From positions 62,001-126,000 of the forward strand of contig NZ_LXKA01000011.1 in NCBI RefSeq assembly GCF_001645125.1: a stretch of DNA of 64,000 nt, read 5' to 3'. Within the stretch, counting starts at the first letter, position 1. Every line of letters starts with the position of its first letter. The position numbers and the translations under genes are program-made. Of the stretch, positions 6,324 through 59,762 are shown in pieces. Origin of the DNA: Paraburkholderia ginsengiterrae. GTDB taxonomy: Bacteria; Pseudomonadota; Gammaproteobacteria; Burkholderiales; Burkholderiaceae. The notes below the pieces were generated by a model that was not told where the DNA came from, made no database searches, and saw only the letters and a program-made list of their open reading frames with translations.

Positions 6324-6626
6324 ATGAAAACCTTTAACAAGATATCGCGTTCGATCATCGCGACTCTGCTGGCGGGCGGCGCGTTGCTCGCGGGCGGCGG
6401 CGCTTTTGCTCAGGAACGCGGAGGTGTCGAATATGGTCCGGGGCCGGCGGTTTACGGTCAGCCGCACATGAGGCCGGTGGATGTCCACGTGAATATCGGC
6501 TGGCACGGCGACCGCTACTACGACGGTCACCGCTACTGGGAGCATGACGAGTGGATGCGCCATCATCCGCGCGACTACGATCCGCATCACCACGACGACC
6601 ATCGTCCGCCGCCCCCGCGCTACTAA
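6324..6626 (+). CDS. Small exported His/Pro-rich protein
   Basis: A 100-residue protein with a clear Sec signal peptide: basic start, a hydrophobic core rich in Ala/Gly/Leu (about residues 9-27) and an AFA-Q cleavage site near residue 29. The mature part is about 70 residues, rich in Tyr, His, Gly and Pro, with HHPRDYDPHHHDDHRPPPP at the end. This composition suggests metal binding or a cell-envelope role, but that is inference from composition only. The start is supported by a strong GGGAGG site. It is followed by a terminator, so it is monocistronic. Confidence 0.75.
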   Translation: MKTFNKISRSIIATLLAGGALLAGGGAFAQERGGVEYGPGPAVYGQPHMRPVDVHVNIGWHGDRYYDGHRYWEHDEWMRHHPRDYDPHHHDDHRPPPPRY

Positions 6627-41898: not shown

Positions 41899-43308
41899 AT
41901 GGCACAGACTCTCTACGACAAATTGTGGAACACCCACGTGGTCCACACGGAAGAAGACGGTACAACGATTCTCTACATCGACCGTCACCTGCTGCACGAA
42001 GTCACCAGCCCGCAGGCGTTCGAAGGCCTGAAGCTGGCTGAGCGCCCGGTGTGGCGCATCAGCGCGAACCTGGCTGTCTCGGACCACAATGTCCCGACCA
42101 CGGATCGCAGCCACGGCATTGCCGATCCGGTCTCCAAACTGCAGGTGGACACGCTCGATTCGAACTGCGACGCCTATGGCATCACGCAGTTCAAGATGAA
42201 CGACCTGCGTCAGGGCATCGTGCACATCATCGGGCCGGAGCAGGGTGCCACGCTGCCGGGCATGACGATCGTCTGCGGCGACTCGCACACCTCCACTCAC
42301 GGCGCGTTCGGCGCGTTGGCGCACGGCATCGGCACGTCTGAAGTCGAGCACGTGCTGGCCACGCAAACGCTCTTGCAGAAGAAGAGCAAGAACATGTTGG
42401 TGAAAGTCGAGGGCCCGTTGCCGCGCGGCTGTACCGCGAAAGACATCGTGCTGGCCATCATCGGCAAGATCGGCACGGCAGGCGGCACCGGCTATGCCAT
42501 CGAATTCGGCGGTTCAACCATTCGCGCGCTGTCCATGGAAGGCCGTATGACGGTCTGCAACATGGCGATCGAAGCGGGCGCGCGCGCCGGCATGGTCGCG
42601 GTCGACAACACCACCGTCGAATACCTGAAAGGCCGCCCGTTCTCGCCGGAAGGCGTCGAGTGGGATCATGCGGTCGAATACTGGAAGCAGTTCACGTCGG
42701 ACGAGGGTGCGCACTTCGACCGCGTGGTCGAGTTGAATGCCGCGGAAATCGTCCCGCAAGTCACGTGGGGCACTTCGCCGGAAATGGTCACGGCCGTGGA
42801 CGGCCGCGTGCCGGATCCGGAACGCGAAAAGGACCCGGTCAAGCGCGACGCGATGGAGCGCGCGCTGAAATATATGGCGCTCGAACCCAATGCGCCGATC
42901 GAGTCGATCAAGCCGGATAAAATCTTCATCGGGTCGTGCACCAACGCGCGCATTGAAGACATTCGCGCCGCGGCTTACGTCGTGAAGAAGCTGGGCCGCC
43001 GCGTGGCGTCGAACATCCGTCTGGCCATGGTGGTGCCGGGTTCGGGTCTCGTGAAGGCGCAGGCGGAACGCGAAGGCCTCGACAAGGTCTTTACCGATGC
43101 CGGATTCGAATGGCGTGAACCCGGTTGCTCGATGTGTCTCGCCATGAACGCCGACCGGTTGGAGCCTGGCGAGCGTTGCGCGTCCACGTCGAACCGTAAT
43201 TTCGAGGGTCGTCAGGGCGCCGGTGGCCGTACCCACCTCGTGAGCCCCGCAATGGCTGCGGCCGCTGCCATCGAAGGGCATTTCGTCGATATTCGCAAGC
43301 TTGGATGA
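41899..43308 (+). CDS. leuC: 3-isopropylmalate dehydratase large subunit
   Basis: 469 residues from ATG 41899 ([15 protein letters not shown]), the family's normal start; the open frame extends upstream but without homology. With LeuD it isomerises 2- to 3-isopropylmalate. [4Fe-4S] ligands lie in [17 protein letters not shown] and [30 protein letters not shown] is the aconitase-type active-site segment. Its stop codon overlaps the start of the entericidin-like gene (ATGA), so the two are translationally coupled. Confidence 0.97.
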
Positions 43309-43469
43309 ATCGCATGATGAAGAACATGAATCGCACCACTCTCCTGCGCCGCGTCGCGCTCGGCGCGCTGGCTGGCCTACTGTTTGGCCTGGCCGGCTGC
43401 AACACTGTGCACGGGTTCGGGCAAGACATGTCACATCTCGGCAATTCGATCAGCAATCACGCTGAATAA
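43305..43469 (+). CDS. Entericidin-like small lipoprotein, embedded between leuC and leuD
   Basis: A 54-residue ORF whose ATG overlaps the leuC stop (ATGA); in-frame Met codons at 43314 and 43317 are alternatives. A basic N-terminus and hydrophobic core (about residues 15-30, [15 protein letters not shown]) end in a clear lipobox with Cys at about 31. The mature peptide is only about 24 residues, [20 protein letters not shown] plus AE. This matches the EcnA/EcnB pattern GCNTxxGxGxDxxxxGxxI. Entericidins are antidote/toxin-like envelope lipopeptides in enterobacteria; here the role is unknown. It sits inside a leucine operon. Confidence 0.85.
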
Positions 43470-44290: not shown

Positions 44291-45358
44291 ATGAAGATCG
44301 CAGTGTTGCCGGGCGACGGCATCGGTCCCGAAATCGTCAAGGAGGCCGTCAAGGTCCTGAACGTACTCGGCGAAAAGTTCGAACTCGAAGAAGCGCCGGT
44401 TGGCGGCGCAGGCTACGAAGCAAAGGGCCATCCGCTGCCCGATTCGACGCTGGCGCTGGCGAAGGAAGCCGACGCGATCCTGTTCGGCGCCGTCGGCGAC
44501 TGGAAGTACGACAGCCTCGAACGCGCGCTGCGTCCGGAGCAGGCCATTCTCGGCCTGCGCAAGCACCTGCAGCTGTTCGCGAACTTCCGTCCGGCCATCT
44601 GCTATCCGCAACTCACCGGTGCGTCGTCGTTGAAGGAAGAAATCGTTTCGGGCCTGGACATCCTGATCGTGCGCGAATTGAACGGCGACATTTACTTCGG
44701 CGCGCCGCGTGGCGTGCGCGAAGCGCCGGATGGCCTGTTCGCCGGCTCGAAGGAAGGCTTCGACACGATGCGTTATTCGGAACCCGAAGTGCGCCGTATT
44801 GCGCACGTCGCGTTTCAGGCGGCGCAAAAACGCGGCAAGAAGCTGACCTCGGTCGATAAGGCCAACGTGCTCGAAACGTCGCAGTTCTGGAAAGACGTGA
44901 TGATCGACGTGTCGAAGGAATACGCGGACGTCGAGCTGTCGCACATGTACGTGGACAACGCCGCCATGCAGCTGGTCAAGGCGCCGAAGTCGTTCGATGT
45001 GATCGTCACCGGCAACATGTTCGGCGACATTCTGTCCGACGAGGCCGCCATGCTGACGGGCTCGATCGGCATGCTGCCGTCGGCGTCGCTCGACAAGAAC
45101 AACAAGGGCCTGTACGAGCCTTCGCACGGTTCCGCGCCGGATATCGCCGGCAAGGGCGTGGCGAATCCGCTGGCCACCATCCTGTCGGCCGCGATGATGC
45201 TGCGTTATTCGCTGAACAAGGCGGAACAGGCGGACCGGATCGAGAACGCGGTGAAAAAGGTGCTCGAACAGGGCTATCGCACGGGCGACATTCTCACGCC
45301 GGGTTGCAAGCAGGTGGGCACGGTCGCCATGGGCGACGCGGTGGTTGCGGCGCTGTAA
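44291..45358 (+). CDS. leuB: 3-isopropylmalate dehydrogenase
   Basis: A 355-residue NAD-dependent oxidative decarboxylase producing 2-ketoisocaproate. It has the N-terminal [16 protein letters not shown], Arg-rich substrate loops ([20 protein letters not shown]), catalytic Tyr in [17 protein letters not shown], the Lys in [14 protein letters not shown], metal Asp in [13 protein letters not shown], and the NAD-binding [24 protein letters not shown]-type site precedes the ATG. A 12-bp hairpin follows its stop. Confidence 0.97.
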
Positions 45359-45405: not shown

Positions 45406-45437
45406 CGCGAATCGGCCTTGAAACAGGCCGATTCGCG
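45406..45437 (+). terminator. Strong hairpin after leuB without a T tract
   Basis: CGCGAATCGGCC (45406-45417) / GGCCGATTCGCG (45426-45437), a perfect 12-bp stem with an 8-base loop. No T run follows, so it may stabilise the leu mRNA 3' end or slow polymerase before the asd leader rather than terminate alone. Confidence 0.5.
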
Positions 45438-45503
45438 TGCAATACGGACGACAGCGGCGGACATTGGCGTCGCCGGATTCCGGTTTTCGTGTATATTGTG
45501 GCG

Positions 45504-45623
45504 ATGGCACTCTCGGCTCAAATCTCCTCGATTTCGAAACTGCACGGCAAAACGGCCCGTGTGGTTGAGCTCGCCATTACTACCACCAAAACGATTACCC
45601 CGAAAACGATCACGAAGCGCTGA
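45504..45623 (+). CDS. Candidate Thr/Ile/Lys leader peptide of asd (39 aa)
   Basis: The ORF begins MALSAQISSISKLHGKTARV and ends with residues 25-39 ITTTKTITPKTITKR. In residues 25-38, 13 of 14 are Thr (7), Ile (3) or Lys (3). Asd makes aspartate semialdehyde, the branch point to lysine, threonine (hence isoleucine) and methionine, so these are the end products expected to control it, as in thrL of E. coli. There is no strong ribosome site; TATATT at 45492-45497 would place a start site near the ATG, allowing leaderless translation, and an in-frame GTG lies 6 bases upstream. Hairpins consistent with attenuation follow. No experiment or homologue was checked. Confidence 0.6.
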   Translation: MALSAQISSISKLHGKTARVVELAITTTKTITPKTITKR

Positions 45624-45633
45624 TCGTCCGTCG

Positions 45634-45686
45634 TGCCCGCTCATCTTCCCCGCGCGGTCACTGCGGGCAAAGATGCGGGGAAGTTT
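45634..45686 (+). promoter_or_regulatory. Putative transcription attenuator upstream of asd
   Basis: Two interleaved, mutually exclusive stems. Stem A: TGCCCGC (45634-45640) with GCGGGCA (45663-45669). Stem B: CTTCCCCGC (45645-45653) with GCGGGGAAG (45675-45683), followed by only TTT. Stem A's left arm starts 11 bases after the leader stop codon, so a ribosome at the stop would mask it and permit stem B, while stalling at the Thr codons would free it. The short T tract is the weak point. Confidence 0.5.
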
Positions 45687-45707
45687 CCATTCGAAGGGTA
45701 TGAAGTC

Positions 45708-46829
45708 ATGAACGTAGGTCTCGTAGGTTGGCGCGGCATGGTCGGCAGCGTCCTGATGCAACGTATGCAGCAGGAAGGCGATTTCGACTTGATCGAACCG
45801 GTGTTTTTCAGCACCAGCAACGCGGGCGGCAACGCGCCGTCGTTCGCCAAAAACGAGACCAAGCTCAAAGACGCGACAAGCATCGAAGACCTGAAGAAGT
45901 GCGACGCGATCATCTCCTGTCAGGGCGGTGACTACACGAACGAAGTGTTCCCGAAGCTGCGCGCGGCGGGCTGGAACGGCTACTGGATCGACGCGGCTTC
46001 GTCGCTGCGCATGAAGGACGACGCGGTCATCATTCTCGACCCGGTCAACCTCGACGTGATCAAGAACGCGCTGGTCAAGGGCCAGAAGAACTTCATCGGC
46101 GGCAATTGCACTGTCAGCCTGATGCTGATGGCGCTCGGCGGCCTGTTCCGCGAAAACCTCGTCGACTGGATGACGGCCATGACGTACCAGGCCGCTTCGG
46201 GCGCGGGCGCGCAAAACATGCGCGAGCTGCTGTCGCAAATGGGCACGCTGCACGGCGCGGTGAAGAACGAACTGGCCGACCCGGCTTCGGCGATTCTCGA
46301 CATCGACCGCCGCGTGCTCGAAGCCATGAACAGCGACAGCATGCCGACGGACCACTTCGGCGTGCCGCTCGCCGGCTCGCTGATTCCGTGGATCGACAAG
46401 GACCTCGGCAACGGCATGTCGAAGGAAGAGTGGAAGGGCGGCGCCGAAACCAACAAGATTCTCGGCAAGCCGGCCATGGGCACGCCGGGCTCGATTCCGG
46501 TCGACGGCCTGTGCGTGCGGATTGGCGCAATGCGCTGCCATTCGCAGGCGCTGACCATCAAGCTGAACAAGGATGTGCCGCTGGACGAGGTGAACAGCAT
46601 CCTCGCGTCGGGCAACGACTGGGTGAAGGTCGTGCCGAACGAGCGCGAAGCGTCGATGCGCGATCTGTCCCCGGCGCTCGTCACGGGCACGCTGACGGTG
46701 CCGGTCGGCCGCGTGCGCAAGCTCGCGATGGGCGGCGAATATCTGTCGGCGTTCACGGTCGGCGATCAGCTGCTGTGGGGTGCCGCGGAGCCGCTGCGTC
46801 GTATGCTTCGCATTGTGCTCGACAAGTAA
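45708..46829 (+). CDS. asd: Aspartate-semialdehyde dehydrogenase
   Basis: 373 residues from ATG 45708 ([20 protein letters not shown]); the open frame continues upstream through the leader hairpins. It reduces aspartyl phosphate to aspartate semialdehyde. NADP-binding Rossmann motif at residues 4-12. Catalytic Cys is in [15 protein letters not shown] (about residue 135), and the active-site region is [16 protein letters not shown]. His/Arg are in [16 protein letters not shown]. Length and the long C-terminal half match the Gram-negative type. The 349-base gap after leuB holds a candidate leader peptide and attenuator. Confidence 0.97.
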
Positions 46830-59554: not shown

Positions 59555-59616
59555 GCGACTCCGCTCGCGGCGCGGCACGCCTGCACGGCACGCCGCGAGC
59601 GTGTTAGCATGAGGGC

Positions 59617-59674
59617 TTGCGTCGATTTGATCTCAGCTTGCGGACGCGGGGCAACCCGAAACAGCTAAAGCGAC
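59617..59674 (+). ncRNA. SAM-II (SAM-alpha)-like riboswitch aptamer upstream of metZ
   Basis: P1 stem GCGTC (59619-59623) / GACGC (59643-59647), loop containing GATTTG (59624-59629) and GCTTGC (59636-59641), then AAACA (59659-59663) and GCTAAAG (59664-59670). These conserved strings in this order are the signature of the compact SAM-II pseudoknot, normally found before metZ/metX/metA. Between P1 and AAACA there is an extra hairpin GGG-GCAA-CCC (59648-59657). High SAM would be expected to shut off metZ. Confidence 0.85.
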
Positions 59675-59726
59675 AGGTGGGAAAGCCGCACTCATCCGCC
59701 TCCGCTCCAGCTTTCTCCCGCACATG

Positions 59727-59762
59727 AAGCCCGCTTATGCCGACGCAAAAGCGGGCTTTTTT
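59727..59762 (+). terminator. Intrinsic terminator in the metZ leader
   Basis: AAGCCCGCTT (59727-59736) / AAGCGGGCTT (59749-59758), a perfect 10-bp stem followed by TTTTTT. It lies 56 bases after the aptamer and 80 bases before the metZ ATG, so it is the likely riboswitch expression platform; it would also end the purF transcript. Confidence 0.88.

Follow-up and report, generated by a model that had tools for sequence, protein, structure and literature searches.

A candidate threonine/isoleucine/lysine leader peptide with alternative RNA stems upstream of asd in Burkholderiaceae and a second family of the same order

Introduction

The product of aspartate-semialdehyde dehydrogenase (Asd) is the common precursor of lysine (and of cell-wall diaminopimelate), threonine, isoleucine, and methionine. 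It has long been asked how one gene can be adjusted to the demand for multiple end products, and multivalent repression of asd is known in Escherichia coli. For the asd locus of Paraburkholderia ginsengiterrae, a preliminary description of the DNA had proposed that a short open reading frame (ORF) rich in Thr, Ile, and Lys codons serves as the leader peptide of an attenuator on asd. Does such a leader control asd, and if so, is transcription or translation the step that is adjusted?

The locus

The window analyzed here is a stretch of 64,000 nucleotides from one P. ginsengiterrae contig, and all coordinates count from its first base. It carries the gene order leuC-leuD-leuB-asd, in which we take the gene directly upstream of asd to be leuB on the basis of this setting and its sequence. 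Between the leuB stop at 45358 and the asd ATG at 45708 lie an inverted repeat, a -10 box, a 39-codon ORF, and two stems. The features relevant to the argument are as follows.

44291..45358, + strand: leuB (3-isopropylmalate dehydrogenase), upstream neighbor of asd, from the ORF list
45490..45497, + strand: extended -10 box TGTATATT, with a TANNNT spacing common to 101 of 102 relatives
45504..45623, + strand: putatively leaderless leader ORF of 39 codons (ATG at 45504, stop TGA at 45621-45623), product MALSAQISSISKLHGKTARVVELAITTTKTITPKTITKR, conserved in frame with length changes among relatives
45576..45617, + strand: candidate Thr/Ile/Lys control-codon run, 13 of 14 codons
45606..45627, + strand: stem I (1:2), ACGATC (45606-45611, Lys-Thr-Ile codons) with GATCGT (45622-45627, spanning the stop codon)
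45626..45668, + strand: antiterminator-like stem AT (2:3), from the alignment of relatives, pairing GTCCG (45626-45630) with CGGGC (45664-45668), GTG (45633-45635) with CAC (45659-45661), and CCGC (45637-45640) with GCGG (45654-45657)
45631..45638, + strand: candidate anti-Shine-Dalgarno segment TCGTGCCC within the 5′ arm of AT, complement of GGGTATGA at 45696-45703
45645..45683, + strand: stem S2 (3:4), CTTCCCCGC (45645-45653) with GCGGGGAAG (45675-45683)
45693..45698, + strand: asd Shine-Dalgarno sequence GAAGGG
45708..46829, + strand: asd, aspartate-semialdehyde dehydrogenase (373 aa), the putatively regulated gene, with relatives at 99% identity
46865..46892, + strand: intrinsic terminator downstream of asd that includes a T run, from a terminator scan

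Several other features of this region deserve mention in their own right. The perfect 13-bp inverted repeat at 45406-45437, between leuB and the asd promoter, has no T tract and perhaps marks the 3′ end of the leu transcript. The asd frame is open upstream to a GTG at 45633 (398 aa) and runs through S2; this open frame (45633-46829) is likely a by-product of the GC-rich sequence and constitutes an annotation trap. The gap between leuC and leuD holds a short lipoprotein ORF (43305-43469) that, we presume, resembles entericidin. Elsewhere in the window, the Burkholderia small RNA Bp2_287 (Rfam RF02424) matches positions 59588-59761 on the - strand at 153 bits.

A conserved Thr/Ile/Lys run

The coordinates and sequence of the ORF are as first described, with Thr, Ile, or Lys at 13 of the 14 positions from residue 25 to residue 38. 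LeuB of the window ends in ..MGDAVVAAL and carries no Thr/Ile/Lys tail. In 40 simulated windows with the first-order base make-up of the original, the best 14-residue stretch in any of the six frames contained 7 to 10 of these residues, and the run in the leader ORF is well above chance for the composition of the window. Only one other high stretch exists in the window, a Thr/Ile stretch at 6562 (11 of 14), which was rejected as a second leader because it lies out of frame inside another gene. When the regions upstream of two acetolactate synthase genes and of the homoserine dehydrogenase gene of the same genome were inspected by eye for attenuators that could serve as calibration, none was seen.

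The leuB-asd gap was then compared across asd loci taken from named genomes and from further genomes of the family Burkholderiaceae. A Thr/Ile/Lys leader is present at 47 of the 49 named loci from Burkholderia, Paraburkholderia, Caballeronia, and Trinickia (one exception, L045, has no leader and the other, L048, is cut by a contig end), at all 20 Cupriavidus-like loci (the genus matching the named Cupriavidus locus L076), and at all 12 Ralstonia-like loci. It is absent from all 10 Pandoraea-like loci and from 29 of the 31 other named loci (L049-L080 minus L055), where the exceptions are the Cupriavidus locus and the Parvibium locus L077. The conserved leader stops 80-93 nt upstream of asd and measures 37-56 codons from its ATG. 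Its N-terminal sequence varies, and its frame stays open. After identical upstream regions were merged, 103 distinct leaders were available (71 from the Burkholderia group, 20 Cupriavidus-like, 11 Ralstonia-like, and Parvibium), with L048, L098, and L099 excluded because the asd motif is missing. The last 13 residues contain on average 10.3, 10.3, and 11.0 Thr, Ile, or Lys residues in the first three of these groups, respectively, encoded within the run chiefly by ACG, AAA, ATT, ACC, and ATC. Inspection of loci L182-L189 by eye showed an open leader in L182-L185 and in L188, an interrupted one in L189, and loss of the leader in L186 and L187. The two losses occur in small genomes of a genus (g8) represented by 8 genomes; where AT would be, L186 has a strong hairpin, and little of the element is left in L187.

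Across these relatives, then, the reading frame of the run has been conserved rather than lost. The proposal of a Thr/Ile/Lys leader on asd is supported in this part, with in-frame conservation across the Burkholderiaceae accompanied by the attenuation-like alternative stems described below.

A putative leaderless start

The extended -10 box ends 6 nt upstream of the leader ATG. This arrangement recurs among relatives, in that 101 of 102 Burkholderiaceae leaders have a TANNNT hexamer 6-9 nt upstream of an in-frame ATG, against a background of 129 among 5121 ATGs in L001-L080. Judging from the -10 spacing alone, the leader ATG would be located at or next to the transcription start, and the box likewise speaks against a transcription start downstream of 45623. 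A consensus scan of the leader revealed no sigma-70 promoter (there is no -35 element) and no terminator. The preliminary description had counted the lack of a ribosome-binding site among the weak points of the proposal. The site is indeed missing, and a start that looks leaderless explains its absence. Leaderless messages have been documented in this bacterial group; asd is mentioned in neither of the two main texts concerned. A start-site study of Burkholderia cenocepacia screened ORFs of at least 50 residues.

Alternative stems after the leader stop

The three stems alternate in the order 1:2, 2:3, and 3:4 that is characteristic of attenuators, with the control codons in segment 1, and a short leader ORF with a codon run for amino acids of the pathway is likewise present. 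The predicted stability of the region is unremarkable relative to shuffled sequences (z of -0.55 for 45504-45720 and 0.04 for 45615-45720), and support for the stems must therefore come from their conservation. For this purpose, 82 of the 103 leaders were aligned (L043 and L077 were excluded and identical rows were merged). Stem I is paired in 98.2% of cells, with zero cells changed on both sides; in L189, a matched change to ACGATT/AATCGT is visible by eye. The AT stem takes the form GUCCG-u-(C)GUG-c-CCGC with GCGG-u-CAC-..-CGGGC (45626-45640 with 45654-45668). Together, AT and S2 are paired in 94.1% of cells and show 19 cells changed on both sides, a count that none of 500 shuffles equaled. 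However, 18 of these 19 cells represent one C-G to U-A pair in the Cupriavidus-like rows, which probably reflects one event, and the number of AT and S2 pairs with double changes is not unusual (170 of 500 shuffles). The outer helix of AT has no advantage over permuted partners (p 0.20), and matched replacements in some clades are apparent by eye. S2 considered separately is paired in 97.0% of cells. Its strongest support comes from L188, a locus in a small AT-rich genome, where by eye the complementary arms AUUCUAAG/CUUAGAAU have taken the place of CUUCCCCGC/GCGGGGAAG without loss of stem I or the leader.

The two stems originally drawn, TGCCCGC/GCGGGCA (45634-45640 with 45663-45669) and CTTCCCCGC/GCGGGGAAG, are perfect complements at these positions, and ten bases separate the leader stop from the first. 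As a conserved antiterminator, however, TGCCCGC/GCGGGCA shows 0 double-changed cells in the 82 sequences, compared with 19 for AT and S2, and we have discarded it for this reason in favor of AT.

A second family and the LeuB-tail form

A covariance model run over 300 genomes of the order returned 5 matches, one in each of 5 genomes and all within its own family, but the filters of this search are strict and distant forms such as those of the second family (f49) were missed. A scan of 154 asd upstream loci for Thr/Ile/Lys runs located them elsewhere in 3 of 3 genomes of genus g38, in Parvibium, and in genomes G398 and G355, which both belong to f49. The run in G355 is the end of LeuB.

An asd match was obtained for 108 of 110 f49 genomes, and 103 upstream regions were scanned (G638, G640, G654, G697, and G700 offer no usable upstream sequence). 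Under the criterion of an ORF tail with at least 5 Thr, Ile, or Lys residues in 7, within its last 12, such a tail occurs in 87 of the 103 regions and is absent from 16; 0 of 515 shuffles reach 5. In 48 of the 87 loci (including L231, L301, and L302), the run is a C-terminal tail of LeuB that extends 10-21 residues past MG[DEQ]AV and lies directly before the putative asd attenuator element, and in the remaining 39 it belongs to a separate ORF. A TANNNT hexamer 6-9 nt before the ATG accompanies 35 of the 39 stand-alone ORFs (mostly as TACAAT) versus 8 of the 48 LeuB-tail loci, which suggests that leaderlessness is tied to the stand-alone form in both families.

After the stop codon, the f49 RNA reads CCGGUUCGUC..GCGCCC..CCCCGGC..GACGAGCCGGGG, such that a single 3′ arm can be claimed either by CCGGUUCGUC, to form AT, or by CCCCGGC, to form S2. 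Overlap of the two stems by at least 3 bases of this arm is seen in 54 of 66 loci. In an alignment of 80 of the 87 positives (the other 7 are without the 3′ arm pattern), 93.6% of the AT cells are paired and 8 cells are double-changed (0 of 500 shuffles), and its count of double-changed pairs is not unusual (297 of 500 shuffles). S2 is paired in 81.0% of cells in these 80 sequences, with no excess over shuffles and no significant covariation. Separately, the stand-alone loci L298-L300, L303, L311, and L322 have a further hairpin after S2 and ahead of the asd Shine-Dalgarno sequence; this hairpin, ACAG..CTGTTTT, is weak and might act as a weak terminator.

Translation or termination as the output

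S2 was considered as a canonical terminator. Only TTT follows S2 in the window, and the T runs within 12 nt after S2 reach a maximum of 4 in 101 sequences from Burkholderiaceae and of 3 in 80 from f49. Measured against the terminator of asd itself, which has a T run, S2 is not a canonical intrinsic terminator because it lacks a U-tract, and this reading was abandoned. The terminator expected of a classical attenuator is therefore missing.

The alternative is that the stems govern access to the asd ribosome-binding site. In f49, the segment GYGCCC, which lies between the two arms, is complementary to the asd Shine-Dalgarno sequence (AGGGCR), and the mean energy of this pairing is -11.2 kcal/mol for loci with their own partners versus -10.2 kcal/mol (sd 0.17) with permuted partners (p 0.0002 for 87 loci, uncorrected for kinship). 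For 43 of the 87 loci, at most 5% of shuffled Shine-Dalgarno regions pair as well. The corresponding signal in the Burkholderiaceae is mixed. In a shorter fold of the window, the segment UCGUGCCC (45631-45638) is predicted to pair with GGGUAUGA (45696-45703), but once the 3′ flank to 45740 is included, the freed segment pairs with the asd coding sequence and not with the Shine-Dalgarno sequence. Comparison with shuffled Shine-Dalgarno regions is not significant for the Burkholderiaceae (medians 0.27, 0.28, and 0.42), the permutation result (p 0.0002 for 51 distinct pairs) is confounded by kinship, and the predicted pairing in the Cupriavidus- and Ralstonia-like groups is 0.01.

Folding was also performed with one or the other stem imposed. 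The mean predicted openness of the asd Shine-Dalgarno sequence with S2 versus AT imposed is 0.46 versus 0.76 in the Burkholderia group (higher with AT in 64 of 66), 0.58 versus 0.67 in the Cupriavidus-like group (16 of 20), 0.58 versus 0.68 in the Ralstonia-like group (10 of 11), and 0.41 versus 0.61 in f49 (57 of 66, with 21 of the 87 loci skipped); these folds exclude pseudoknots and pairing out of the AT loop, and the AT-state zero is partly built in. Unconstrained folding of truncated Burkholderia-group RNAs yields no switch, with S2 averaging 0.04-0.09 and with similar Shine-Dalgarno openness for a ribosome at the stall (0.54) and at the stop (0.58). In single folds from which the ribosome footprint was removed, a long AT forms when the footprint ends near the stop (for example, in L131, L112, and L033), and S2 or a related hairpin forms when it reaches further.

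On the strength of the f49 anti-Shine-Dalgarno energies and the imposed-stem folds, we judge asd translation, rather than the terminator choice originally proposed, to be the more likely output. Masking of the asd ribosome-binding site is more probable than its main rival, Rho-dependent termination. According to the latter explanation, the same leader and stems exist, but Rho (or an unusual U-less S2 hairpin) terminates transcription before asd once the leader has been fully translated, and a stalled ribosome together with AT prevents this. The topology is indeed that of classical transcription attenuators. Rho sites also tend to be C-rich and G-poor, as is the run with its post-stop segment (38-40 C versus 23-28 G per 105 nt in five loci), but this base bias is not independent evidence because Thr, Ile, and Lys codons are C-rich by themselves. 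A role for Rho was proposed for terminator-less leader peptides upstream of cys operons by Seliverstov 2005 (PMC1262725). The missing U-tract weighs against termination by the hairpin, given that the terminator of asd has one, and the complementarity to the Shine-Dalgarno sequence in f49 would need another reason. We therefore consider termination before asd possible but rather unlikely.

A different possibility is that the RNA after the stop is a riboswitch-like element that binds a metabolite or protein, with the leader ORF being incidental or auxiliary. The segment CTTCCCCGC[GA]C[AG]G is almost invariant across the Burkholderiaceae examined, which exceeds what pairing needs, and a pseudoknot could accommodate AT and S2 in part at the same time. 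Nevertheless, no + strand match to any Rfam family, including Thr_leader and the asd RNA motif RF01732, is found within 45444-45760 even at an E value of 10, the f49 element differs in sequence, and both arms of S2 have been exchanged in L188, changes that an aptamer would not tolerate; the codon run persists throughout. Collectively, these points make a binding element improbable. It is least probable of all that the leader is a functional microprotein whose Thr/Ile/Lys tail is a protein property, since its N-terminal parts are conserved within groups (..HGKTAR.. in Paraburkholderia and MFAARPF in f49) but differ wholly between them, with the run, the stop-codon position, and the stems kept, and since the shift of the run to the LeuB C-terminus in 48 of 87 f49 loci leaves a tail that is hard to explain by protein function.

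Proposed mechanism and its implications

We favor, with somewhat better than even confidence, a leader-peptide attenuator that senses the availability of Thr-, Ile-, and Lys-tRNA and acts on asd translation. Transcription would start at or next to the leaderless ATG, where the ribosome would load at the 5′ end of the RNA. A shortage of any of these tRNAs in charged form would stall the ribosome in the run, where it would occupy the 5′ arm of stem I. The arm located after the stop codon would then be free to pair forward as AT, sequestering the anti-Shine-Dalgarno segment, such that the asd Shine-Dalgarno sequence would be unmasked and asd translated. When the amino acids are plentiful, the ribosome would reach the stop codon and cover the start of AT, and S2 would form. 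Following release of the ribosome, stem I would re-form and the freed segment would pair with the asd ribosome-binding site or early coding region, turning asd off. Both the stalling and the direction of the response are what we infer from this arrangement.

The geometry of the window is compatible with these steps. Stem I has its 5′ arm 15-10 nt ahead of the stop, and the first bases of AT follow the stop by 3-5 nt; a ribosome at a stop codon extends some 12 nt beyond and would therefore overlap these first bases. A ribosome stalled in the last 4-10 codons should therefore block stem I and leave AT free. Because this geometry fits leader-peptide control, we hold it very likely that asd is controlled by Thr, Ile, and Lys through its leader. 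With about even confidence, we further propose an order-wide family of Thr/Ile/Lys asd attenuators that acts on asd translation and exists in two architectures. In one, a leaderless micro-ORF would begin with the very first nucleotide of the transcript; in the other, control codons would be appended to the LeuB C-terminus, so that LeuB would also serve as the leader peptide and would couple asd to translation of the leucine operon.

If this proposal is correct, a leader that responds jointly to three end products but not to methionine would explain, in a large group of bacteria, how expression of a single gene is matched to multiple products, and the pooling of three members of the aspartate family within the same leader would amount to a simple multivalent control of their shared branch-point enzyme. 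The LeuB-tail form would indicate that control codons can reside inside an ordinary enzyme gene, and a search that looks for short ORFs or for terminators would therefore overlook such switches. The stand-alone leaderless form, in turn, escapes gene finders that require a ribosome-binding site or at least 50 codons.

Comparison with known systems

Among the closest known systems is the thrL attenuator on the thrABC operon of enterobacteria, which is represented in Rfam as Thr_leader. The asd leader resembles thrL in its short leader ORF with Thr and Ile codons, its alternative hairpins, and its pathway logic. In contrast, thrL acts on thrA, has a terminator with a U-tract, and has a Shine-Dalgarno sequence before the leader, whereas the leader described here is located on asd, adds Lys, appears leaderless, lacks a U-tract, and in f49 often lies within the leuB frame.

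The preliminary description had suggested that the attenuator might be undescribed, and our literature search, which covered mostly papers readable without a subscription, agrees with this in that it turned up neither an account of an asd leader peptide from these bacteria nor an experiment on the response of asd. The main text of a genome-wide survey of premature terminators (PMC2965389) has no threonine, lysine, or aspartate entry, as would be expected for a U-less element. Other RNA elements directly upstream of asd are the asd RNA motif RF01732 of Lactobacillales and the attenuator-like sequence of Streptococcus mutans asd, as presented in the available text of PMC2864571; RF01732 shares this position but is found in Lactobacillales and has no match in the window.

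Related architectures come from Actinobacteria. In mycobacteria, leaderless cysteine-rich upstream ORFs have been described (PMC4633059) that likewise are short ORFs at the 5′ terminus with a C-terminal run of a pathway amino acid and are candidates for attenuation. They differ in reading one amino acid and in belonging to another phylum, and the available text of that report does not describe an AT/S2 pair. The relevant sections of a second study (PMC1262725) present a LEU element upstream of leuA along with cys leader peptides. The likeness to asd is that a leader run is combined with RNA able to pair with a Shine-Dalgarno sequence and that the cys leaders lack an intrinsic terminator. However, in LEU the codon run itself pairs with the Shine-Dalgarno sequence, no asd case appears in those sections, and the authors there doubt leader-peptide control of leuA. 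For parts of the idea, these two reports provide precedents in Actinobacteria.
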